Source: Cardiobacteriaceae bacterium TAE3-ERU3
GTDB taxonomy: Bacteria; Pseudomonadota; Gammaproteobacteria; Cardiobacteriales; Cardiobacteriaceae
Reading direction: 5' to 3'
DNA: 64,000 bases
Assembly: GCA_019218315.1 (NCBI GenBank)
Contig: JAHUUI010000002.1
Location: forward strand, 1 to 64,000
The translations under genes and the position numbers were made by a program. Positions 3,319 to 25,340 of this stretch are shown one piece after another. The number at the start of each line of letters is the position of its first letter. Position 1 is the stretch's first letter. The notes below the pieces were generated by a model, which did not search any database, had not been told where the DNA came from, and saw only the letters and a list, made by a program, of their open reading frames with translations.

Positions 3319-4251
3319 ATGACTATGGACACTGATCGCGTACACTTTTTGACTATCGAGGCGGCCGATGATGGGCAACGCGTTGATAACTTTATTCGTA
3401 AACGCTATCCGAATTTGCCGAAAAGCCGTATTTATCAGATGTTGCGTAAAGGTGAAGCGCGTCTCAATAAGAAGCGCATCAAGCCAACAGACCGTATCCA
3501 AACCGGTGATATGTTGCGCTTACCTCCGATCCCTGATGGTACTCGCCAAGCGCAATGGGTACCGCCACGTTGGCAGGAAGTCGTAAAGAGCAACGTGCTG
3601 TACGAGGATGATGATTTCCTTATTATCAATAAGCCAGCAGGGTTAGCTGTGCATAGTGGTAGCGGGCAGGAATTTGGCGTGATTGATGTGGTCCGATCAG
3701 AGTGGGGAGAGCATTATGCAGAGCTTGCGCACCGTCTTGATCGTGAGACATCAGGCTGTCTGGTGCTGGGTAAGCATCGGGATGCGTTGGCTGTATTTCA
3801 GCAAGCAATGCAGGATGATGAGGTGGAAAAGCGCTACTGGTGCTTGGTAGCTGGGCAATGGGATGCGAATTGCACCGAAGTTTCTCTCAAGCTTGCCAAG
3901 CGCGATGAAGGCATGGTGGTTGCTGATGATGGTAAGGACGCGCATACGTGGTTCTTCATCATCCGCGCTTTGCAGAATCTGACGTTATTGGAAGCATTGC
4001 TCGACACAGGGCGTACGCATCAGATTCGCGTGTCAGTTGCCGAGAAAGGGCATCCGATCATTGGTGATGGTAAATACGGTGATTTTGCGCTGAACCGCCG
4101 GTTCGCGGCGAATGGCTTTGAGGGTATGTTTTTACATGCGCGTAGTATCCGCTTTACTTACAAAAATAAAGTTATCCAAACGCAGGCGCCTTTGCCTGAA
4201 AAAGCACAACATTTGTTAGATAAACTTGAAGAGGTTGACCATGACTTATGA
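3319..4251 (+). CDS. rluC: 23S rRNA pseudouridine synthase, RluC type
   Basis: RluC modifies uridines 955, 2504 and 2580 of 23S rRNA. The 310-residue protein has an N-terminal S4 RNA-binding domain (about residues 15-70) and an RsuA/RluD-type catalytic domain with the signature HRLDRETSG; the catalytic Asp is near residue 141. ATG 3319 and ATG 3325 are both possible, the latter having a GGA eight bases upstream. An in-frame TTG at 3304 has no support. The stop overlaps the start of sppA (4241), implying translational coupling. The rluC-sppA pair is common in gammaproteobacteria. Confidence 0.93.
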   Translation: MTMDTDRVHFLTIEAADDGQRVDNFIRKRYPNLPKSRIYQMLRKGEARLNKKRIKPTDRIQTGDMLRLPPIPDGTRQAQWVPPRWQEVVKSNVLYEDDDFLIINKPAGLAVHSGSGQEFGVIDVVRSEWGEHYAELAHRLDRETSGCLVLGKHRDALAVFQQAMQDDEVEKRYWCLVAGQWDANCTEVSLKLAKRDEGMVVADDGKDAHTWFFIIRALQNLTLLEALLDTGRTHQIRVSVAEKGHPIIGDGKYGDFALNRRFAANGFEGMFLHARSIRFTYKNKVIQTQAPLPEKAQHLLDKLEEVDHDL

Positions 4252-5197
4252 TGAAGAACGCGCATTGGCGCAGGTTGCCAATGAAGCGATTATTGAATTA
4301 CGCCGGCGCAGACGGTGGAAGATTTTTTTCCGCTTGGTGTGGCTGCTGATTGTGCTCGCTATTGTTGCCCGCGCAGTTGTAGGTAGTAAAGAAGAAAAAG
4401 CTTATCCGAGCAACTCAGAGCATGTTGCTGTGGTTGAAGTTGATGGCGTTATTGCTCCGGGTATGCCAGCGAGTGCTGAGGATCTTAACGAAGCACTGAC
4501 CGATGCTTTTGAAAATACGCACTCTAAAGCGGTGATTTTGGCAATTAACTCCCCGGGTGGTTCACCGGTGCAGTCCGGGCAAGTGTATCGCACGATTGAT
4601 CGGCTGAAGAAAAAGCACGATAAAAAAGTCTATGCGGTGATTAGTGACGTGGGTGCGTCCGGTGCATATTTTATTGCCGCTGCAGCGGATGAAATTTACG
4701 CAGATCCGGCGAGTATTGTCGGTTCAATCGGCGTGATTTCGCAATCAGTTGGGGTTGAAGGATTGATGGACAAGCTCGGCATTCAGGGGCGTACGTTCAA
4801 AGCGGGTAAATATAAAGATTTTCTTAATCCTACCAAGCCTTTGGAAGGGTTCGAAGTTGCGCACATGGATAGCGTACTAGCTGACGTACATCAGCAGTTT
4901 ATCGATGCGGTGAAAGCAGGGCGTGGTGATCGTTTGGTCGACCCCAAAGCCAATAACTTGTTTACCGGTCTATTCTGGAGTGGGCAGCAAGCTAAGCAGT
5001 TAGGGTTGGTCGACGGATTGGCGTCCACTCGTGAATTGGTCGATGAGCTTTATGGCAGTGATATGGAAACGGTGCTCTATTCTCCTGCTTTGTCGCCTTG
5101 GCAGCAGTTGTCGCGTGACTTGAAGAGTGAAGTCACGCAACAGGTCAATACGCTATTTGGCACACACCAACAGGTCAGCGCCGTACTCGCTAAATAA
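4241..5197 (+). CDS. sppA: Signal peptide peptidase SppA, short form
   Basis: This is a membrane-bound serine protease of family S49 that degrades cleaved signal peptides. The 318-residue product is the short single-domain form. An arginine-rich cytosolic start is followed by one membrane helix (about 26-47) and the protease domain. The nucleophile Ser lies in DVGASGAYF near residue 140, and the general-base Lys is expected in the AGKYKDF segment near 190. ATG 4241 follows GAGG at a suitable distance and overlaps the end of rluC. The last 45 bases overlap the convergent Maf gene in coding sequence. Confidence 0.92.
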   Translation: MTYDEERALAQVANEAIIELRRRRRWKIFFRLVWLLIVLAIVARAVVGSKEEKAYPSNSEHVAVVEVDGVIAPGMPASAEDLNEALTDAFENTHSKAVILAINSPGGSPVQSGQVYRTIDRLKKKHDKKVYAVISDVGASGAYFIAAAADEIYADPASIVGSIGVISQSVGVEGLMDKLGIQGRTFKAGKYKDFLNPTKPLEGFEVAHMDSVLADVHQQFIDAVKAGRGDRLVDPKANNLFTGLFWSGQQAKQLGLVDGLASTRELVDELYGSDMETVLYSPALSPWQQLSRDLKSEVTQQVNTLFGTHQQVSAVLAK

Positions 5198-16938: not shown

Positions 16939-17901
16939 ATGGTAAAAACAGTGGTGGTGGCTTTTGGTGGTAATGCCTTGATTAACGATTCGGGTAAAAC
17001 AGCCTTTCCACATCAGTATGATCATCTTACGCAAACTGTTGGTCATATTGTCGATCTTAAAGAAGCAGGATGGAATGTGGTAGTTGTGCATGGGAACGGC
17101 CCACAAGTTGGTTTTTCCCTACAGCGTTCTGAAATAGCCAAATCAGAAGTTAGTCCGCTGCCATTAGATTATGCCGTTGCTGAATCTCAGGGGTCGATTG
17201 GCTTTATGTTCCAGCGTGCTCTGAATAATGAAATTATTCGCCGTGGCCTCAATTTACAGGTTGCTACTGTAGTTACTGAAGCACTAGTCAAAGAGGATGA
17301 TGTGGCTTTTTCTCAGCCAAGTAAGCCGGTTGGTGGCTTTATGAATAAGGAAGAAGCACAAAAGGTTCAGAAGGAGCTGGGCTGGAGCGTTATGGAAGAT
17401 GCTGGTCGAGGATGGCGGCGTTGTGTTGCCAGTCCAAGGCCTATCCGTATTTTGGAGCAAGATATTATTCATCAGCTCATTGATAATGGCGCGATTGTGA
17501 TTGCTGGTGGCGGTGGCGGTATAGCAGTTTGTGAAGATGAACACGGTAATTTGCAAAGTCTTGAGGCAGTTATTGATAAAGATTTGACAGCTGCCTTGAT
17601 AGCCGTTGAGCTGCGTGCCGATTGCCTGCTGATTCCGACCGGTGTGCCGAAAGTTGCAATACATTTTGGCCAGCCAAATCAGCAGTGGCTTGATACTTTG
17701 ACTCTCGAACAAGCGCAGGAGCTCATTGATCGAGATGAGTTGGGTAAAGGTTCAATGCAGCCAAAAGTAGAGGCGTTAATGCAATATGTGGCGGCTTGTC
17801 CGAGTGGTTGTGGTGTGATTACCGATCCGCCGTCCATGCTTGAGGCACTTGCAGGCAAAAATGGTACGCGCCTTCAGGGGCAATATTATCAAAGTCAGTA
17901 G
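16939..17901 (+). CDS. Carbamate kinase of the AllF/G/H module
   Basis: The 320-residue protein is a carbamate kinase: it starts VVVAFGGNAL and has VVHGNGPQVG near residue 50, the long IVIAGGGGGIAV segment near 190, VIDKDLTAALIA near 215 and the GSMQPKVEA motif near 274. In catabolic settings it transfers phosphate from carbamoyl phosphate to ADP, yielding ATP, ammonia and CO2. There is no arcA/argF-type transferase nearby. Instead the downstream genes are homologues of AllH, AllF and AllG, so it is likely the AllK equivalent. It is first in the operon, with the LysR gene 15 bases later. Confidence 0.92.
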   Translation: MVKTVVVAFGGNALINDSGKTAFPHQYDHLTQTVGHIVDLKEAGWNVVVVHGNGPQVGFSLQRSEIAKSEVSPLPLDYAVAESQGSIGFMFQRALNNEIIRRGLNLQVATVVTEALVKEDDVAFSQPSKPVGGFMNKEEAQKVQKELGWSVMEDAGRGWRRCVASPRPIRILEQDIIHQLIDNGAIVIAGGGGGIAVCEDEHGNLQSLEAVIDKDLTAALIAVELRADCLLIPTGVPKVAIHFGQPNQQWLDTLTLEQAQELIDRDELGKGSMQPKVEALMQYVAACPSGCGVITDPPSMLEALAGKNGTRLQGQYYQSQ

Positions 17902-17916
17902 TTGAGGTGAGTAACC

Positions 17917-18819
17917 ATGAGCTTTTCTTCCGATACGATTCGCGTACTGCAAATTATTGCGCAAACAGGCAGTTTTAGTGAGGCCGCTAAAGTTCTGCAT
18001 CGTGTGCCATCAGCAGTGAGCTATACGGTTAAAAAAATGGAAGAAGAGCTCGAGGTGCCGCTGTTTGATCGCAGTGGAAAGAATGTACGCCCAACACCAG
18101 CTGCGCAATATATTATTGAACACAGTGATTGGATTTTACACGGGTTGAATGAATTAAAGCGCAATGCTACACAAATTAGCACAGGTATAGATCGCAATTT
18201 TACTATTGCTCTGAATTATATTGTCAACCCTAAGCCAATCGCACCATTACTAGAGCAATTAATCAGCAAATTTCCCGCAACCAAATTTGCCGTGCGTACT
18301 GAAGTATATAACGGATGCTGGGATGCTTTATACGAAGGCCGCGCTGATTTAGTCATCGGTGCACCACAGAGTGCTCCACACAATGATGGGGTATCTACAG
18401 AGTATCTCGGTGATATTCGGTGGTCTTTTGTAGTTGCTGCTTCTCATCCACTTGCCGATCATGATGGCGTATTGAGTGCCGAAGATGTACGCGCATATCC
18501 ATCAATCGTTGTTCATGATTCTTCGGTAGCACTTAGCCCGAAAAAGACTTGGGCATTAAAAGGCCAAAAAGTCGTTTATGCCGCTGATTTGAATATGGTG
18601 TTAACGCTAATCCAACAGGGTATTGGCCTTGGTTTCCTCCCAGATAGCTTTATCGAGTCTGCTTTGGCAGATGGCAGTGTGGTGCGCAAGCAGATTATTG
18701 AGTGTAAGCAGCCTGTGCCCGTTTATTACGCATGGCGTTTGCATCATCAAAGTGTGTTATTGGATTTTCTGCTCGATATTTTGCGGAATCCAGTGTGTAA
18801 GCAGCAATGGCTGCAATAA
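17917..18819 (+). CDS. LysR-family regulator, AllS/PunR-like
   Basis: The 300-residue protein has an N-terminal winged helix-turn-helix (about 4-62; GSFSEAAKVLHRVPSAVSYT) and a periplasmic-binding-like effector domain. From memory, the effector half resembles E. coli AllS, the activator of allantoin genes, and PunR. The parts in common are the DSS...W.L.GQK stretch and GIGLGFLPDSFI. ATG 17917 follows GAGGTGA. It sits inside the operon between the kinase and ankyrin genes, on the same strand. It therefore probably controls its own transcript, through the dyads at 16852-16884. The inducer is unknown but presumably is the transported substrate or a breakdown product. Confidence 0.88.
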   Translation: MSFSSDTIRVLQIIAQTGSFSEAAKVLHRVPSAVSYTVKKMEEELEVPLFDRSGKNVRPTPAAQYIIEHSDWILHGLNELKRNATQISTGIDRNFTIALNYIVNPKPIAPLLEQLISKFPATKFAVRTEVYNGCWDALYEGRADLVIGAPQSAPHNDGVSTEYLGDIRWSFVVAASHPLADHDGVLSAEDVRAYPSIVVHDSSVALSPKKTWALKGQKVVYAADLNMVLTLIQQGIGLGFLPDSFIESALADGSVVRKQIIECKQPVPVYYAWRLHHQSVLLDFLLDILRNPVCKQQWLQ

Positions 18820-18843
18820 GTTAGCAATAAAAAGGAGTGTTTT

Positions 18844-19434
18844 ATGAGTGGGCAGGAATTGTTTCAAGCTGTCGCATCAGGTGAACAGGCTCAGGTAGAA
18901 AAGCTACTTGAGTGTGGTGCGGATATCAATAGCCGTGATAAAGGAAAGCGTACACCAATTTTGGTCGCTGCGCAGAATAAGCATTACGACTTGGTACGCT
19001 GGTTGGCTGAGCAGGGAGCTGATATTAATGCTCAGGACAATAAGTCTTTCAATCCGTTTATTCACGGCTGTATTAATAACGATTTGACGCTAGTCAAATT
19101 AATGGTTGAACTCGGTACAGACGTTACTTGCCTGACCCGTTTTGGGGGTAATGGACTGACTCCAGCAGCTGAAAAAGGGCATGAGGAGATCGTTAAATAT
19201 CTGCTGGAAAATACAGATATTAATGTCAATTTAACCAATACTGTAGGTTGGACTGCATTGATTGAAGCCATCATCCTCAATGACGGCTCAGAAAAAATGC
19301 AACGTATTGTACGTACTTTGCTAGAGCATGATGCTGATCCGAATATGACGGACGAATGGGGTGTTAGTCCGTTGGATTTGGCAAAGCGCAAAGGCTACAG
19401 CGAAATTGCCGCCATCATTGAAGAATATTTATAA
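18844..19434 (+). CDS. Ankyrin-repeat protein
   Basis: The 196-residue protein consists almost wholly of ankyrin repeats. Five to six units can be laid out at about 1-31, 35-65, 68-98, 103-133, 135-171 and 174-196, with motifs such as TPILVAAQNKH, GADINAQD, GLTPAAEKGHEEIV and SPLDLAKRKGY. There is no signal peptide or membrane helix, so it is cytosolic. AGGAG precedes ATG 18844. Such proteins bind other proteins; in this operon the natural partners are the AllF/G/H subunits or the regulator. That is inference; no catalytic role is visible. Confidence 0.88.
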   Translation: MSGQELFQAVASGEQAQVEKLLECGADINSRDKGKRTPILVAAQNKHYDLVRWLAEQGADINAQDNKSFNPFIHGCINNDLTLVKLMVELGTDVTCLTRFGGNGLTPAAEKGHEEIVKYLLENTDINVNLTNTVGWTALIEAIILNDGSEKMQRIVRTLLEHDADPNMTDEWGVSPLDLAKRKGYSEIAAIIEEYL

Positions 19435-19449
19435 GTAGAGGTAGCATCG

Positions 19450-20292
19450 ATGAGCGGTTTGATCACTATGATGGATCGGGAAATCGCAAGCAGTTATGCA
19501 GATCTAGATCAGGATTTGATACTGATTTCCGCTCATCGTCACGTCATTAATTTTCATCCTGTAAATAACCCTGACAAAGTCTTGGCGCTGGTTGACGAGG
19601 AAATTGCGCTGGGCCCCCGCCAGTTGCGATGCCGTAATTTGCCTGTAGCCGATGCCGAGGCTATCAGAAGCCTGATAGCCCGCAGTTGGCCACAAATGTT
19701 CAGTTGCGCACTGCGCTTACCAGTAAGTGCGCTCAATGTATCGGTAGTGGAGAGTGCTTGGCTGCGTTTATCGGCAGCGGCGGCTGAAGCCCCAGATGCG
19801 TTTAGTAGACAAATACAAAAGCATTTACAGCACGCCATTGTAGCTCTGCTCGCGGCACTGCAACATCCTCACCCCTTCCGTGATGATATAGACAGTGCGG
19901 TGAGTTCGTTAATCGGCCTTGGTGGTGGCTTAACCCCTAGTGGTGATGATTTTTTATCGGGACTACTGGTGGCAATGCATTTACAGAGCAGTCCGTTAAG
20001 CCAGCATTTAGCGCTACTGCAAACGGCAGTTCAGCGTTATCTCAATCAAACGCACGTAATTTCTGCGGCTTTTATCAGCGATGCAGTGCTGGCACAGGTA
20101 AGCAGTACTGTGCAGGAATTTGTCGATTGCTTGCACGATAGCACAGTGGAGCAACAACGCGTTCAGGCGTCATTAAGTAGCTTGACCGATCTAGGGCATC
20201 GCTCGGGTTATGACTTGCTCAGTGGTTTGTTGGCAGGATTACCTTTTTTACACAACAGGAGTACAGCACTATGTCCATACATAGCCAGTTGA
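19450..20292 (+). CDS. allH: AllH-like DUF2877 protein (YlbF family)
   Basis: The 280-residue protein carries the DUF2877 hallmark GLGGGLTPSGDDFLSG at about 156-171, a glycine-rich loop likely to bind a phosphate or acyl group, and a final GHRSGYDLLSGLLAG. In E. coli the homologue YlbF, with FdrA and YlbE, is reported to form oxamate carbamoyltransferase (AllH/F/G). It lies 15 bases after the ankyrin gene, and its last 22 bases overlap the start of the FdrA-like gene. Length is close to the E. coli protein. Function by homology is likely, but substrate identity here is not shown. Confidence 0.85.
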   Translation: MSGLITMMDREIASSYADLDQDLILISAHRHVINFHPVNNPDKVLALVDEEIALGPRQLRCRNLPVADAEAIRSLIARSWPQMFSCALRLPVSALNVSVVESAWLRLSAAAAEAPDAFSRQIQKHLQHAIVALLAALQHPHPFRDDIDSAVSSLIGLGGGLTPSGDDFLSGLLVAMHLQSSPLSQHLALLQTAVQRYLNQTHVISAAFISDAVLAQVSSTVQEFVDCLHDSTVEQQRVQASLSSLTDLGHRSGYDLLSGLLAGLPFLHNRSTALCPYIAS

Positions 20293-21818
20293 AACGAAAT
20301 ACTTACGTTGACTCAGTTACCTTGATGGCTGTATCAACGGCAGCCAATCAGCTTGACGGCGTTCGCCAAGCTCAGGTTGCGATGGGCACTACAATGAACA
20401 AAACGGTGCTTGAGGAACTCAATCTACTTGATGAGACGCTCCAAGCAGCTGGTAATTCAGATTTGATGGTGGTTTGTGACTTGGAGAAAGGCATTGATGT
20501 CGATGATATTTTTGCGGCTATTGATGCGCTTCTTGCCCGTAAGCCTGAGCAAGATAAGGGCGATAGCAGTGAAATATTTCATACTTTAGGTGCTGCAGCT
20601 GAAGGCGTTCCTGAGAGTAACTTTGTCATTATTTCCGTCAATGGCGCGTATGCAGCCCGTGAAGCGCAGCAAGCGTTGCAGCTCGGTAAGCACGTTATGC
20701 TCTTTTCAGATAATGTCAGTATTGAAGACGAACGTCGTCTGAAAGCTTTAGCGCACAAGAAAGGTTTGCTGATGATGGGCCCAGATTGCGGTACGGCGAT
20801 CATTAACGGCGTGGGCCTGGGTTTTGCCAATAAAGTACGCCGTGGCAATATCGGTATTGTCGCTGCATCTGGAACTGGTGCGCAGGAAATGTCCGTCCGG
20901 ATTCATGAATTCGGCGGGGGGGTATCGCAGTTGATAGGCACTGGTGGCCGAGATTTATCGGCAGATATCGGTGCAAGGATGATGCTAGACGGCTTGAATA
21001 TGCTGGCTGAAGATGAGCAAACAGAAGTCATTGTTCTGGTCTCTAAGCCGCCAGCAACGGAAGTGGCTGAAAAAGTACTTGCGGCAGCAGGCAAAATTAA
21101 CAAGCCGGTGTTTATCCAGTTCCTCGGTTATCAGGATCAGCCATCGTGTAGTGAAAATATTCATCTCTTTGCGCATAGTAAGCCGGCAGCAATGGCCGCT
21201 GTTATTGCATCGGGTGTTGATGAAGGCAGCATTGATAAGCATGCTTTGAACTGGCCACTGATTGAAGAAGTGCGCGCCAAGCTTAGCCCCGAGCAGCGTT
21301 ATATTCGCGGTCTGTTCTGTGGCGGCACGTTATGTGATGAAGCCCTCTTTGCTGCTTCAGAAATCCATCAAGATATTTATTCCAATATCCATCCTGATCC
21401 TGCTCGCCGAATCGGGCCGAAAGATGCGAGTAAAGCACATACCTTCCTCGACTTTGGCGATGATGCTTTTACCAATGGCCGCGCCCATCCAATGATCGAT
21501 CCGAGTTATCGCGTTGAGCGTATTCTCAGTGAAGGTCGCGATCCGGAAGTGGGCGTGTTGTTACTCGATTTTGTCCTCGGATTCGGTGCTAATGCAGATC
21601 CTGTTGGGACGACTCTGGATGCACTGATTACGGTGAAACAGGAAGCAGAAGCGGCTGGGCGTCATTTGGAAATTCTCGCCTATGTGCTCGGTACAGATCT
21701 CGATGAGCCTGATGTAGCCAGCCAGGTAGCACGGCTTGAAGCTGCCGGCATCACCATCGCATCTAGCTCGACCAATGCTGGATTGCTGGCGCGTGAATTT
21801 GTTGTAAAAGGAGCTTGA
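20271..21818 (+). CDS. allF: AllF-like protein (FdrA family, succinyl-CoA-synthetase-like)
   Basis: The 515-residue FdrA homologue is built like the succinyl-CoA synthetase alpha chain. It has a CoA-binding-like domain with SDNVSIEDE, GPDCGTAIING (170-180) and ASGTGAQE (199-206), the GTGGRDLS loop (223-230), and a second ligase-like half with GLFCGGTL, DPSYR and VLLLDFVLGFG. FdrA is not known to act on CoA esters and is thought to be the core of the oxamate carbamoyltransferase. ATG 20271 follows AGGAG at nine bases and lies inside the end of the AllH gene. It is somewhat shorter than E. coli FdrA as I recall it, ending soon after the last ligase domain. Confidence 0.87.
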   Translation: MSIHSQLKRNTYVDSVTLMAVSTAANQLDGVRQAQVAMGTTMNKTVLEELNLLDETLQAAGNSDLMVVCDLEKGIDVDDIFAAIDALLARKPEQDKGDSSEIFHTLGAAAEGVPESNFVIISVNGAYAAREAQQALQLGKHVMLFSDNVSIEDERRLKALAHKKGLLMMGPDCGTAIINGVGLGFANKVRRGNIGIVAASGTGAQEMSVRIHEFGGGVSQLIGTGGRDLSADIGARMMLDGLNMLAEDEQTEVIVLVSKPPATEVAEKVLAAAGKINKPVFIQFLGYQDQPSCSENIHLFAHSKPAAMAAVIASGVDEGSIDKHALNWPLIEEVRAKLSPEQRYIRGLFCGGTLCDEALFAASEIHQDIYSNIHPDPARRIGPKDASKAHTFLDFGDDAFTNGRAHPMIDPSYRVERILSEGRDPEVGVLLLDFVLGFGANADPVGTTLDALITVKQEAEAAGRHLEILAYVLGTDLDEPDVASQVARLEAAGITIASSSTNAGLLAREFVVKGA

Positions 21819-21820
21819 TC

Positions 21821-23242
21821 ATGAATCAGACCGAAAAATTATTCGAACAGCCTTTAAATGTACTCAATATTGGTATCGCTCAATTCGCAGAGGATTTACG
21901 GCGTCAGCAGACAACTGTGACTCAACTTGACTGGCAGCCACCGGGCAAAGGTGATACGGCAATGGTCGCAGCACTTGCTAAAGTTGAACAGCCTGAGATC
22001 GCTGAAAAAATCCATGCAGCCAACCAAGAGGCATTAACGCGGATTACCAGTGCTCAGCCTGTCTTGACCGGATATGGGCGTGCGCAAGATGTGATTCCAG
22101 GCATGACAGGGAAAACGCTATTGCATGCAGGTCCGCCTATCGATTGGGCAAACATGAATGGCCCGATGCGGGGCGCAGTTACCGGTGCTATCGTCTTTGA
22201 GCGTTGGGCAAAAAATCTTGATGAAGCTGCTGAACTGGCAGCCAGTGGTGAAATTAATTTCAGCCCGTGCCACGAGCATCAAGCTGTTGGATCTATGACC
22301 GGTATTACCAGCCCATCGATGTACGTTCATGTGGTGGAAAACAAAACACACGGCAATATCGCCTTCACTAATCTTTCTGAGCAACTTGCAAAGATTCTGC
22401 GTATGGGGGCTAATGATCAAAGCGTGATAGATCGCCTCAACTGGATGCGTGATGTCTTCGGGCCAATACTTGCACAAGCGATGACTTTCTGCGAAGAGGG
22501 TATTGATTTGCGGCTTATGCTGGCGCAGGCACTGCATATGGGGGATGAATGTCATAACCGCAATGTTGCTGGTACCACGCTGTTGATTCAGAAGTTGACT
22601 CCGTATATTCTCGAAACTGATTTTAGCAACAAAGATAAAAAAGACGTTTTCAATTTTGTTGCATCGTCAGATTATTTCTCTGGCCCTACATGGATGGTCT
22701 GCTGTAAAGCGGCATTGGACGCAGCAGAAGGTATTGAGCATTCTACGGTGCTGACCACTATGGCGCGCAATGGCTATGAGTTTGGTATTCGTGTTTCAGG
22801 GTTGCCTGGTCAATGGTTTACCGGCCCTGCACAGCAGGTTATCGGCCCAATGTTTGCTGGCTATAAACCGGAAGATTCTGGCTTGGATGTTGGCGATTCT
22901 GCGATCACAGAAACCTATGGTATCGGTGGTTTTGCCATGGCCGCAGCACCAGCAATCGTTTCGCTGGTAGGCGGCACGGTTAATGATGCAATGCGTTACA
23001 GCAAAACTATGCGCCAGATCACAACTGGCCTCAATCCAAACGTAACCATTCCATCGCTGAATTTCATGGGTATTCCTACCGGTGTGGATGTACGCAAGGT
23101 TATTGAGAGTGGTGTACTGCCATTAATCAATACAGCGATAGCACATAAAGAAGCGGGTATCGGCATGATTGGTGCTGGTATCGTTCATCCTCCAATGGAA
23201 GCATTCACCAAAGCCATGCAAGCCATTGCAGCACAATACTAA
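21821..23242 (+). CDS. allG: AllG-like DUF1116 protein (YlbE family)
   Basis: The 473-residue DUF1116 protein has an N-terminal NIGIAQFAEDL...LDWQPP segment, a long helical core and conserved stretches such as GAVTGAIVFE, HEHQAVGSMTG, GDECHNRN and GIGMIGAGIVHPP. Its role is known only by association with FdrA and DUF2877 in carbamoyl transfer. ATG 21821 follows AAAGGAGC and starts two bases after the AllF stop; an in-frame TTG at 21815 is less likely. The permease follows after 21 bases. Confidence 0.87.
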   Translation: MNQTEKLFEQPLNVLNIGIAQFAEDLRRQQTTVTQLDWQPPGKGDTAMVAALAKVEQPEIAEKIHAANQEALTRITSAQPVLTGYGRAQDVIPGMTGKTLLHAGPPIDWANMNGPMRGAVTGAIVFERWAKNLDEAAELAASGEINFSPCHEHQAVGSMTGITSPSMYVHVVENKTHGNIAFTNLSEQLAKILRMGANDQSVIDRLNWMRDVFGPILAQAMTFCEEGIDLRLMLAQALHMGDECHNRNVAGTTLLIQKLTPYILETDFSNKDKKDVFNFVASSDYFSGPTWMVCCKAALDAAEGIEHSTVLTTMARNGYEFGIRVSGLPGQWFTGPAQQVIGPMFAGYKPEDSGLDVGDSAITETYGIGGFAMAAAPAIVSLVGGTVNDAMRYSKTMRQITTGLNPNVTIPSLNFMGIPTGVDVRKVIESGVLPLINTAIAHKEAGIGMIGAGIVHPPMEAFTKAMQAIAAQY

Positions 23243-23263
23243 ACATCATTCAGGAGAAAAGTG

Positions 23264-24796
23264 ATGACTACAAAATTATGGAGAAAAGGTGATTGGGCGG
23301 CATTTTTCGGGTTATTCAGTAATAACCTGACAAACTTGCTGACCATGATTGCATTACTGACGCTTGTCGTTGGTATTCCTGCTGAAGTTGTTTACGGGCG
23401 CATTGCACCAGCTTTTGGTTTGGCTGTATTTTGCGCCAGCGTATGCTACGTTATTTTTGCCAAGCAACTTGCCAAAAAAACCGGACGTGAAGACGTCGTT
23501 GCGCTACCTTCCGGGCCTAGTGCACCATCTATCTTTACCGTGACCTTTTTGGTTTTGCTACCAGTCTATCAGTCTACACAAGATTATGAATTTGCTATTC
23601 GTATTGGTCTTGTATGGGGCTTTGTCGAAGGCTTGATTCTGTTTGTCGGTGCCTTTATGGGTGACTTTTTGCGCCGTGTTGTACCGCGTACAGTGCTATT
23701 GTCTTGCCTAGCTGGTTTGGGGTTGCTGTTACTGGCGATGAACCCAATGCTACAGGCCTTCCATACACCAATTGTATCGTTCGTAGTACTGGTGCTGATT
23801 TTTATCAACTGGTTTGGGCGCTCACCAATGTTCCGTAAAGTTCCTACCGGATTACTGCTTTTAATCGTGGGTACTATTCTGGCATGGGTTTTTGGTTTGC
23901 AAGATGCTGGCGCCATAGGTAGTGCATTGTCTAGCGCAGGATTTAATCCTCCAACGCCACATATCGGTAGTTTCCTTGAAGGAACCAAAGTCGCTGCACC
24001 ATATTTGGCTTCGGCTGTCCCACTGGCATTGGCCAACTATGTCTTTGACCTTGAAAACATCGAAAGTGCGCATGCTGCGGGTGATCCCTATCCTACACGC
24101 CGAGTGATGATCGCTAACGGTGGTTCAAGTATGTTCGGTGCGCTGATGGGTAACCCGTTCCCGGTAACCGTATATGTTGGCCATACTGCATACAAAGAAA
24201 TGGGTGCCGGTATTGGTTATACCTTGGCTACAGGTGTGGTTATGTTGCTCGTCTGTATGTTCGGCCTCGGCGCATTCCTGCTTTCACTGATTCCAATGGC
24301 AGCGATCGCACCAATCCTGATTTTCATCGGTATTGTGACTGCAAATCAGGTTGTACGTGAAACACCAAAATTGGAAGTTCCAGTGATCTTTGTCTGCCTG
24401 TTCCCATGGATTGGCGCATGGGCACTGACTTTGGTTGGCAATACCTTAAAGAGTGCTGGTACCAATGCGATGAATGTTGGTTGGGATGTTATCGAGCGAA
24501 GTGGTGTGGACTATACGGGCCTTTACCATCTCGGTAGTGGGGCGCCATTATCATCACTCTTGTGGGGATGTATTGCTATCTTTGCTATCACCAACGAACC
24601 GAAAAAAGGCGTTATTGCAGCATTGATTGCAGCAGGACTGGCCTATTTCGGTATCATTCACGAGCATGTGCCTGTAGTTGGTGGCGAAGGCCCGACTATG
24701 TTTATGATTTCATACCTCATGGTCGCCGGATTGTTATTGCTCAAGCATATTCTCAATCAGCGTGAGCAGCAGCATCAACCTTCTCCTAATAAATAA
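23264..24796 (+). CDS. NCS2-type permease of the carbamoyl module
   Basis: The 510-residue integral membrane protein has about 12-14 hydrophobic segments. Its N-terminal KGDWAAFFGLFSNNLTNLLTM region and central MFGALMGNPFPVTVYVGHTAY segment resemble the purine/xanthine/uracil (NCS2) carriers, though of a divergent branch. AGGAG precedes ATG 23264. It is the last gene of the operon and the only transporter in it, so it most likely imports the substrate that AllF/G/H act on. Candidates are oxalurate, allantoin-related ureides or another carbamoylated acid. Purines themselves would need upstream enzymes not found here. Confidence 0.85.
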   Translation: MTTKLWRKGDWAAFFGLFSNNLTNLLTMIALLTLVVGIPAEVVYGRIAPAFGLAVFCASVCYVIFAKQLAKKTGREDVVALPSGPSAPSIFTVTFLVLLPVYQSTQDYEFAIRIGLVWGFVEGLILFVGAFMGDFLRRVVPRTVLLSCLAGLGLLLLAMNPMLQAFHTPIVSFVVLVLIFINWFGRSPMFRKVPTGLLLLIVGTILAWVFGLQDAGAIGSALSSAGFNPPTPHIGSFLEGTKVAAPYLASAVPLALANYVFDLENIESAHAAGDPYPTRRVMIANGGSSMFGALMGNPFPVTVYVGHTAYKEMGAGIGYTLATGVVMLLVCMFGLGAFLLSLIPMAAIAPILIFIGIVTANQVVRETPKLEVPVIFVCLFPWIGAWALTLVGNTLKSAGTNAMNVGWDVIERSGVDYTGLYHLGSGAPLSSLLWGCIAIFAITNEPKKGVIAALIAAGLAYFGIIHEHVPVVGGEGPTMFMISYLMVAGLLLLKHILNQREQQHQPSPNK

Positions 24797-24814
24797 TCCA
24801 ACATTAGAGAGCTG

Positions 24815-24841
24815 AAGGGCGCTTGCGAAAGCGCCCTTTTT
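24815..24841 (+). terminator. Rho-independent terminator of the carbamoyl module
   Basis: A 10-bp GC-rich stem (24815-24824 with 24829-24838) with a GCGA tetraloop is followed by T residues. It lies 19 bases after the permease stop and closes the seven-gene unit. Confidence 0.92.
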
Positions 24842-24854
24842 AGTGGTTGCTAAA

Positions 24855-25340
24855 CCAATAAAACTTCTCGGATTCGTAAAAACCGACCTGTGCTTGGGAT
24901 TGCCTGTGTTTTTATCGGCTATAGGTAAATAGGTTTACGATACGTATTATTTGATTTACTTGGGCATAAAGGCACTGCTATCAAAGCAAACCTCTTATGA
25001 GTTTAGTATGCCTAATTTATTGGGTAAGTGCGAAGTGAGATAGTGCAAGCATTATCTGAGTGGCTTTATAGTTGGTATCAGTGATCCCAAGGCAATTTTA
25101 TTTTTTACTGCGTTGTTCCCGCAATTTATTCAGCTTGACAATGCGATGTTACCGCAATATCTGGTGTTCGTCAGTACTTTTGTGATATTAGAGCTATCAT
25201 GGCTGTTATTTTATGCACATTGGAGGACGCGATCATCGGCATGGTTGCTGAAAAAAAGCCGTGCCAAATTGTTTAACCGGCTGACGGGTACGGTATTTAT
25301 TGGTACAGGAGTGCTGCTATCGACGTCCGAAAAGACTTGA
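24855..25340 (+). pseudogene. Decayed LysE/RhtB family exporter
   Basis: Frame 3 reads VYDTYYLIYLGIKALLS, then a TAG at 25041, then SGFIVGISDPKAILFFTALFPQFI and the rest of a LysE C-terminus to TGA at 25338. Both pieces are in the same frame and match consecutive parts of the LysE fold. A further TAG at 24930, and LysE-like sequence upstream that reads better in another frame (SRIRKNRPVLGIAC near 24860-24915), indicate a frameshift as well. There is no N-terminal SPGPD motif. So this is a disrupted gene. A short open frame from TTG 25113 is only its tail. It abuts the convergent GNAT gene. Confidence 0.78.

Follow-up and report, generated by a model that had tools for sequence, protein, structure and literature searches.

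We analysed a 64,000-nt stretch of contig JAHUUI010000002.1 from Cardiobacteriaceae bacterium TAE3-ERU3 (the window) and focused on one operon of seven plus-strand open reading frames (ORFs) at positions 16939 to 24796. It encodes a carbamate kinase, a LysR regulator, an ankyrin-repeat protein, three proteins related to Escherichia coli AllH, AllF and AllG (H, F and G below) and a permease (Table 1). The seven co-directional genes and their single operon were as described in the initial annotation. The ORFs are separated by four gaps of 15 to 24 nt or overlap by 22 and 4 nt, so the overlaps agreed with that description and its gap range of 2 to 24 bases did not. The terminator placed at the end of the operon was recovered as a stem-loop with a T tail, and a 45-nt fold of this region had a free energy of -20.2 kcal/mol. 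The stem-loop was not among the sites listed by the consensus scanner. A promoter scan gave fewer sites than shuffled sequence, and the GC content of the operon (47.4%, versus 47.9% for the window) was not unusual.

Table 1. Features of the operon in the window, and related operons and loci in other sequences
Feature	Location	Strand	Evidence or content
Carbamate kinase, YahI/ArcC type	16939..17901	+	NCBIfam PRK12352 336.6 bits, cut-off 266; Pfam AA_kinase
LysR regulator, YahB/AllS/PunR relative	17917..18819	+	Pfam HTH_1 and LysR_substrate
Ankyrin-repeat protein, YahD homologue	18844..19434	+	Pfam Ank_2
AllH/YahE-like subunit (DUF2877)	19450..20292	+	PF11392 83 bits, cut-off 25
AllF/YahF-like subunit (FdrA; succinyl-CoA-synthetase-related)	20271..21818	+	Ligase_CoA/CoA_binding; PRK06091 457, cut-off 433
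AllG/YahG-like subunit (DUF1116), Yah clade	21815..23242	+	PF06545 298 bits, cut-off 27; TTG start
Permease, UraA/SLC26-like fold	23261..24796	+	Structure matches of the predicted model
Intrinsic terminator closing the operon	about 24815-24841	+	Stem-loop and T run read from sequence
Second AllFGH/kinase operon, same genome	L003:3774-12063 (G000:C1)		TrtA-like hydrolase, lone AH_C, CodB-like permease
AtzD/TrzD-linked operon, K. pneumoniae plasmid	L142:3281-13360		FdrA/DUF1116, carbamate kinase, ring-opening amidohydrolase
AtzD/TrzD-linked operon, Aminobacter sp. SR38 plasmid pSR8	L143:6863-14630		FdrA/DUF1116, carbamate kinase, ring-opening amidohydrolase
H-less yah loci	L047, L055, L057, L059, L066, L074, L076, L077, L079, L081, L082, L084

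Pfam and NCBIfam matches bore out the families assigned to the kinase, LysR, ankyrin, AllH, AllF and AllG proteins. The kinase is 43% identical to E. coli YahI and 71% to the second kinase encoded in this genome, and it is predicted by analogy to form ATP from carbamoyl phosphate. The ankyrin protein shows 50% identity to E. coli YahD. F (515 residues) is 58% identical to YahF and 37% to AllF, and G (475 residues) is 70% identical to YahG and 47% to AllG. The regulator had been called AllS/PunR-like; its Pfam domains place it in the LysR family (35% identity to YahB, 33% to AllS), and it scored below the NCBIfam cut-offs of both PunR (257 vs 345) and AllS (215 vs 372). No OTCace (ATCase/OTCase) Pfam domain was found at E ≤ 0.001 in the seven proteins. 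The permease is 83% identical to its Gallibacterium and Avibacterium copies and had no Pfam match even at E 10, PF00860 (Xan_ur_permease) included. Its predicted model (predicted local distance difference test, pLDDT, 80) gave 81 PDB matches at E ≤ 0.001, including SVCT1, UraA, UapA and SLC26 proteins, with TM-scores to UraA-fold transporters of about 0.5. The earlier label "NCS2-type" holds for the fold and not for the sequence family.

By gene content and sequence similarity, the operon is a version of the yah operon of E. coli that includes a permease but lacks YahJ. In E. coli K-12, yahB-yahJ comprises LysR, ankyrin, DUF2877, FdrA-like, DUF1116, kinase and amidohydrolase genes. The first six types and the clade of G are common to yahB-yahD-yahE-yahF-yahG-yahI-yahJ and the window operon, whereas only the latter has a permease, begins with the kinase gene instead of carrying it late and holds the LysR gene inside the operon; of the two, only the E. 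coli operon has YahJ. The literature searched, in the parts available, gave no function for the yah operon and no account of Yah as a carbamoyltransferase, and yah terms had no match in the available text of PMC9843812 and PMC8550087.

A tree of 47 AllG-like proteins showed three supported clades, namely All (7 rows, 100/100), Yah (22 rows, 100/100) and Trt (98/94). The Yah clade comprises the window protein, K-12 YahG, a plasmid copy (L140) and 19 of the 80 loci described below, and window G lies outside the All and Trt clades. The Trt clade comprises 13 rows linked to the triuret hydrolase TrtA and two linked to AtzD/TrzD. The G clades track the upstream enzyme, with five upstream-context labels requiring 5 changes on the tree against a shuffled mean of 22.2. 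The AtzD label falls twice inside the Trt clade, and the starred branches force two changes. A long-branch warning applied to several rows, among them the "other" rows, own_trt (the second operon of the same genome), L100, L143 and L157. Excluding the three "other" rows, 91 G positions (44 rows) and 68 F positions (40 proteins within the length limits) were invariant across the three clades, and the conserved positions are intact in the window proteins. Two G positions were fixed differently in Yah, Trt and All (G285, S/N/T; G287, Y/H/Q), and columns 160, 188, 190, 290, 291, 345, 384, 441 and 451 of G set Yah apart; F had one clade-distinguishing column only (Q220). In all seven All-clade rows, F has 555 to 636 residues and G 419 to 442, and in E. 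coli the stretch corresponding to the first ~50 residues of G is located at the end of AllF. The operon had been taken for an unusual AllFGH oxamate system. That reading gave way to a yah operon, as G falls in a separate, fully supported clade and the All-clade F/G boundary is missing.

The yah operon is present in most E. coli. Matches spanning 80% or more of K-12 yahD-yahI were present in 4930 of 5426 complete genomes; part of this query recurs in E. coli genomes, and only the count at this coverage was used. With a plasmid yah operon as the query, any match was found in 5023 of the 5426 genomes and coverage of at least 80% in 137. Scanning GTDB genomes yielded 391 relatives, of which the best 80 loci were kept. 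These yah-type loci belong to enterics, Pasteurellaceae, Bacilli and single Actinomycetota and Azospirillum genomes. The G proteins closest to window G come from a Cardiobacteriaceae metagenome-assembled genome (84%) and from Gallibacterium and Avibacterium (80-83%), both bird-associated. Among 369 sampled Gammaproteobacteria, 5 had a PF06545 match above the cut-off, as did 2 of the 12 genomes from the family of the window (its own genome counted in both). This sparse occurrence, together with the 80-83% identity to Gallibacterium and Avibacterium, suggests that the yah operon has spread horizontally.

Neighbouring genes were counted at 79 of the 80 loci; L009 was left out, its G having been mis-called by the simple gene caller. 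Within six genes of G, a kinase was found at 67 loci, a window-type permease at 56, YahJ at 51, an NCS1 (AllW-like) permease at 12 and YahC at 9, and no gene was labelled AllB, AllD or AllE. An AllC-like M20 protein (31-34% identity) lies near G in nine. In L009, a DUF1097 (YahC-like) gene (4200-4706) occupies the permease position of other yah operons, suggesting that YahC and the permease are alternative transport parts. Yah-type loci of Bacilli (L010, L021 and others) carry an AdeR/PucR-like regulator, an NCS1 permease and a small TadA/GuaD-like deaminase, joined in some cases by an M20 carbamoylase. Of the YahJ-like proteins, 37 of 53 have an S/T-R-R-x-F motif near the N-terminus, which we take to be a twin-arginine translocation (TAT) signal. 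The nearest solved relatives of YahJ are AtzC-type amidohydrolases and cytosine deaminases, which suggests that YahJ, where present, acts on the compound beforehand, deaminating it or hydrolysing its ring.

The reported absence of allantoin enzymes from the 64 kb extended to the whole genome (G000; 2,412,223 bases in 11 contigs, completeness 100) for AllB, AllC, AllD and AllE, the four covered by the search. There was no genome-wide match to Ldh_2/AllD or to the AllE cupin. The two Amidohydro_1 matches are HutI and PyrC; two of the four M20 matches are DapE and ArgE, and the other two showed no meaningful similarity to AllC. A complete allantoin pathway elsewhere in this genome was not found. 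Among 47 different yah-carrying genomes drawn from the 80 loci, an allantoinase scored above the NCBIfam cut-off in 19 (20 of the 48 rows in the table, where one genome stands twice) and AllD in 15. By a tally of the two tables, both were present in 10 carriers and neither in 23, so the upstream enzymes are also lacking in many relatives. Weaker family matches (E ≤ 0.001) were commoner (allantoinase 45/48, AllD 31/47).

The initial annotation described the module as "stand-alone" and missed a second AllFGH/kinase operon beside a TrtA-like enzyme in the same genome. A search with AllG returned two loci, the window and L003. The latter encodes a kinase, H, a LysR protein, an isochorismatase-like hydrolase, F and G. 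It also encodes a CodB-like permease and a lone AH_C domain, which corresponds to the C-terminal part of allophanate hydrolase. The best PDB match of the L003 hydrolase was TrtA (6xix, E 3e-79), ahead of biuret hydrolases, and its score was below the BiuH equivalog cut-off (273.7 vs 370). All 14 checked TrtA active-site letters are kept in this hydrolase and in 13 homologues from other Trt-type loci. Six of them (F35, N41, A134, E160, Y187 and I205) differ between TrtA and BiuH, the positions of both enzymes being taken from PMC7948467. From these similarities, the L003 operon is predicted to serve triuret use. AllFGH-like proteins, kinase, LysR and permease are common to the TrtA-linked and window operons, whereas the TrtA-linked system has the triuret-hydrolase-like enzyme, AH_C, usually CodB, no labelled ankyrin protein and a G of another clade. 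The window operon has neither TrtA nor AtzD/TrzD, and its G is not in the Trt clade; L003 has both traits.

The Trt-type gene set was also found in E. coli CFT073 (C_RS22495-22530), conjugative plasmids, Avibacterium, Photobacterium (L141) and other enterics. A plasmid copy searched in "near" mode matched 1547 of the 5426 E. coli genomes, 1543 of them over at least 80%. The operon occurred on 82 plasmid records, E. coli conjugative plasmids such as L138, L139 and L140. A bird or poultry source was given for 28 of the 60 Trt plasmid rows listed and no source for 11, with no baseline for comparison. By gene content, "GR 29" of strain BEN2908 (PMC12928451) is a TrtA-linked operon; the available text of that paper interprets an operon of this kind as one for pyrimidine use.

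In the two AtzD/TrzD-linked operons, the amidohydrolases scored above the cyanuric acid hydrolase equivalog cut-off (580 in L142 and 550.6 in L143 vs 360), and their best PDB matches were cyanuric acid hydrolases. AllFGH-like proteins and a kinase are common to these operons and that of the window; theirs differ in having a cyanuric acid hydrolase as the upstream enzyme and a G that branches within the Trt clade or at its base. The two plasmid operons also encode related membrane-like proteins, 36% identical to each other. TrtA and AtzD are unrelated enzymes, and both yield carboxybiuret (PMC7948467, PMC6219798). Since the G proteins linked to them form one clade and the enzymes share this product, the simplest reading is that the Trt-clade substrate would be carboxybiuret or its decarboxylation product biuret. 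Weighing against this substrate, atzF lies about 4 kb away in L142, where a hydrolytic route may run alongside, and comammox contigs carry atzF beside allFGHK (PMC12625717). Triuret genes also stand beside allFGHK in comammox and were read there as two pathways (PMC12625717). Carboxybiuret phosphorolysis is not described in the available parts of the literature searched. At L101 and L102, G adjoins an AllC-like protein, in one of them with a class-V aminotransferase that is PucG-like by eye, a context that would fit oxalurate.

For the window operon, we favour with good though not full confidence the following function. The permease would import a small acylurea, namely an N-carbamoyl amide acid akin to oxalurate, carboxybiuret or ureidomalonate. 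Using phosphate, the F-G-H transferase would cleave it into carbamoyl phosphate and an amide acid, the kinase would use carbamoyl phosphate to form ATP and carbamate, which would then give NH3 and CO2, and the LysR protein would control the operon. We infer the F-G-H and kinase reactions from those of E. coli AllFGH and AllK; AllFGH converts oxalurate and phosphate into carbamoyl phosphate and oxamate, and back (PMC11326118). This homology lends support to the carbamoyl-transfer and ATP logic proposed initially. Carbamoyl transfer coupled to a carbamate kinase is also common to YgeW-YqeA (PMC12507026); YgeW, ATCase and OTCase belong to other Pfam families than AllFGH, none of which occurs in the window operon. 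Several points weigh against the proposed function. The enzyme assignment depends on homology to a single complex that has been characterised, none of the neighbouring enzymes in the window points to a substrate, and the usual partner YahJ was unmatched in this genome in a search that had no positive control. Furthermore, the succinyl-CoA-synthetase-related F could do other acyl chemistry, and the ankyrin protein is left without a role in the mechanism.

The possibility, doubtful in our view, that the operon is an oxamate carbamoyltransferase importing and phosphorolysing ready-made oxalurate (or parabanate) draws on the reaction catalysed by E. coli AllFGH (PMC11326118), with which the window shares the three protein families and the kinase. 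Likewise, All-clade loci L145, L154, L155 and L157 have allFGH adjoining a permease read by eye as a major facilitator superfamily (MFS) protein, with no labelled all gene nearby besides AllS or carbamate kinase and no AllD label, and may be candidate stand-alone oxalurate import units. A 1965 title cited in PMC3364942 states that parabanic acid induces Streptococcus oxamate transcarbamylase. However, the E. coli system belongs to another clade, with a shifted F/G boundary, adjoining AllD, AllC and AllE and an established substrate, whereas Yah G forms a clade of its own and columns 285 and 287 differ among all three clades. In addition, allF or allG deletions in E. coli make no oxamate (PMC11326118), though K-12 has yah, which is perhaps silent. 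Because the tree and the gene boundaries set Yah apart, oxalurate was not adopted as the default Yah substrate. We consider a third acylurea more likely. Oxalurate, the first guess of the initial annotation, thus fared worse than its second option, a compound not yet linked to this family. Ureidomalonate is our own suggestion as a candidate, from its likeness to carboxybiuret.

It is unlikely, to a somewhat greater degree, that the window operon shares a pathway with the second locus and uses a product of triuret breakdown (allophanate, biuret or carboxybiuret). Both operon types occur in this genome and lie side by side in Avibacterium (L007, L008), and members of the window permease family are found in the Trt-type operons of L100 and L151 as well. 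Moreover, 36 plasmids were common to the 60 Trt and 49 Yah rows listed, with operon starts 15.7 to 22.1 kb apart, but these copies are nearly identical and therefore count as few events. A Trt operon lies within eight genes of G in only 2 of the 79 yah loci, and 24 of the 47 carriers have a single AllG gene, yah often being alone. The idea that F-G-H is not catabolic, running towards carbamoylation or performing acyl-CoA or acyl-phosphate chemistry unrelated to carbamoyl transfer, is very improbable: F is related to the succinyl-CoA synthetase alpha subunit, FdrA was at one time proposed, in the CanOE paper, to be an oxamate:CoA ligase (PMC3364942) and the assayed AllFGH reaction is reversible (PMC11326118), but yah F-G is often paired with a carbamate kinase and a permease, and the AllFGH assay in E. 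coli itself (PMC11326118) argues for carbamoyl transfer.

The H subunit was not found in some relatives. In 12 Enterobacter/Lelliottia yah loci (Table 1), no yahE was detected ahead of yahF, and the F and G frames are open. An AllH-family match was absent genome-wide in 11 of these 12 genomes, two of the 12 being metagenome-assembled, and the E. coli control was positive. An H-less Trt-type operon is present as well in the Lelliottia genome (G057), and each of the two Avibacterium genomes pairs two G genes with a single H. Deletion of allH from E. coli still allowed 1.2 mM oxamate, compared to 17.7 for the wild type and 0 for the allF or allG deletion (PMC11326118, Table 1). In Zophobihabitans (L034:7533-9986), AllH-like and F sequences share one open frame of 817-818 residues, which hints that H and F touch. 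A similar H-F fusion at L100 was dropped, as the AllH match sits in a separate open frame (372 residues). The model of the window AllH-like protein (pLDDT 93.6) had no Foldseek PDB match at E ≤ 0.001 and a best VIA-align Z of 5.1 over part of the chain, and a sequence look-up of AllH in the PDB returned nothing at E 0.1. Just past the terminator of the window operon, a plus-strand remnant at 25040-25340 resembles, by eye, the end of a LysE/RhtB exporter.

Because the unrelated TrtA and AtzD both make carboxybiuret and link to one clade, the AllF-G-H family looks like a set of acylurea phosphorolases that feed carbamate kinase and are sorted by substrate. We see an even chance that all parts of a broader scheme hold together. 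In that scheme, the family would comprise ATP-yielding acylurea phosphorolases of at least three substrate clades. The Trt clade would phosphorolyse carboxybiuret (or biuret) arising from triuret through TrtA or from cyanuric acid through AtzD/TrzD, yielding carbamoyl phosphate and from it ATP, by a route distinct from the known hydrolytic ones, the Yah clade would act on a third acylurea from oxidised or deaminated nucleobases, and H would be dispensable.

The yah operon thus probably breaks down a small imported urea-like compound for ATP, and the comparison suggests that compounds formed when uric acid and triazines are degraded are substrates of this enzyme family too. As yah occurs in most E. 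coli, its placement in this family makes its function directly testable with a short list of substrates. From the sister clade linked to TrtA and AtzD, it seems that bacteria may be able to obtain ATP from triuret and cyanuric acid, for which the routes described in PMC7948467 and PMC6219798 are hydrolytic or decarboxylating. Such a gain is relevant to triazine breakdown and to the use of nitrogen from uric-acid oxidation products, and AllFGH/FdrA annotations such as "oxalurate degradation" and "acyl-CoA synthetase" would be read differently.

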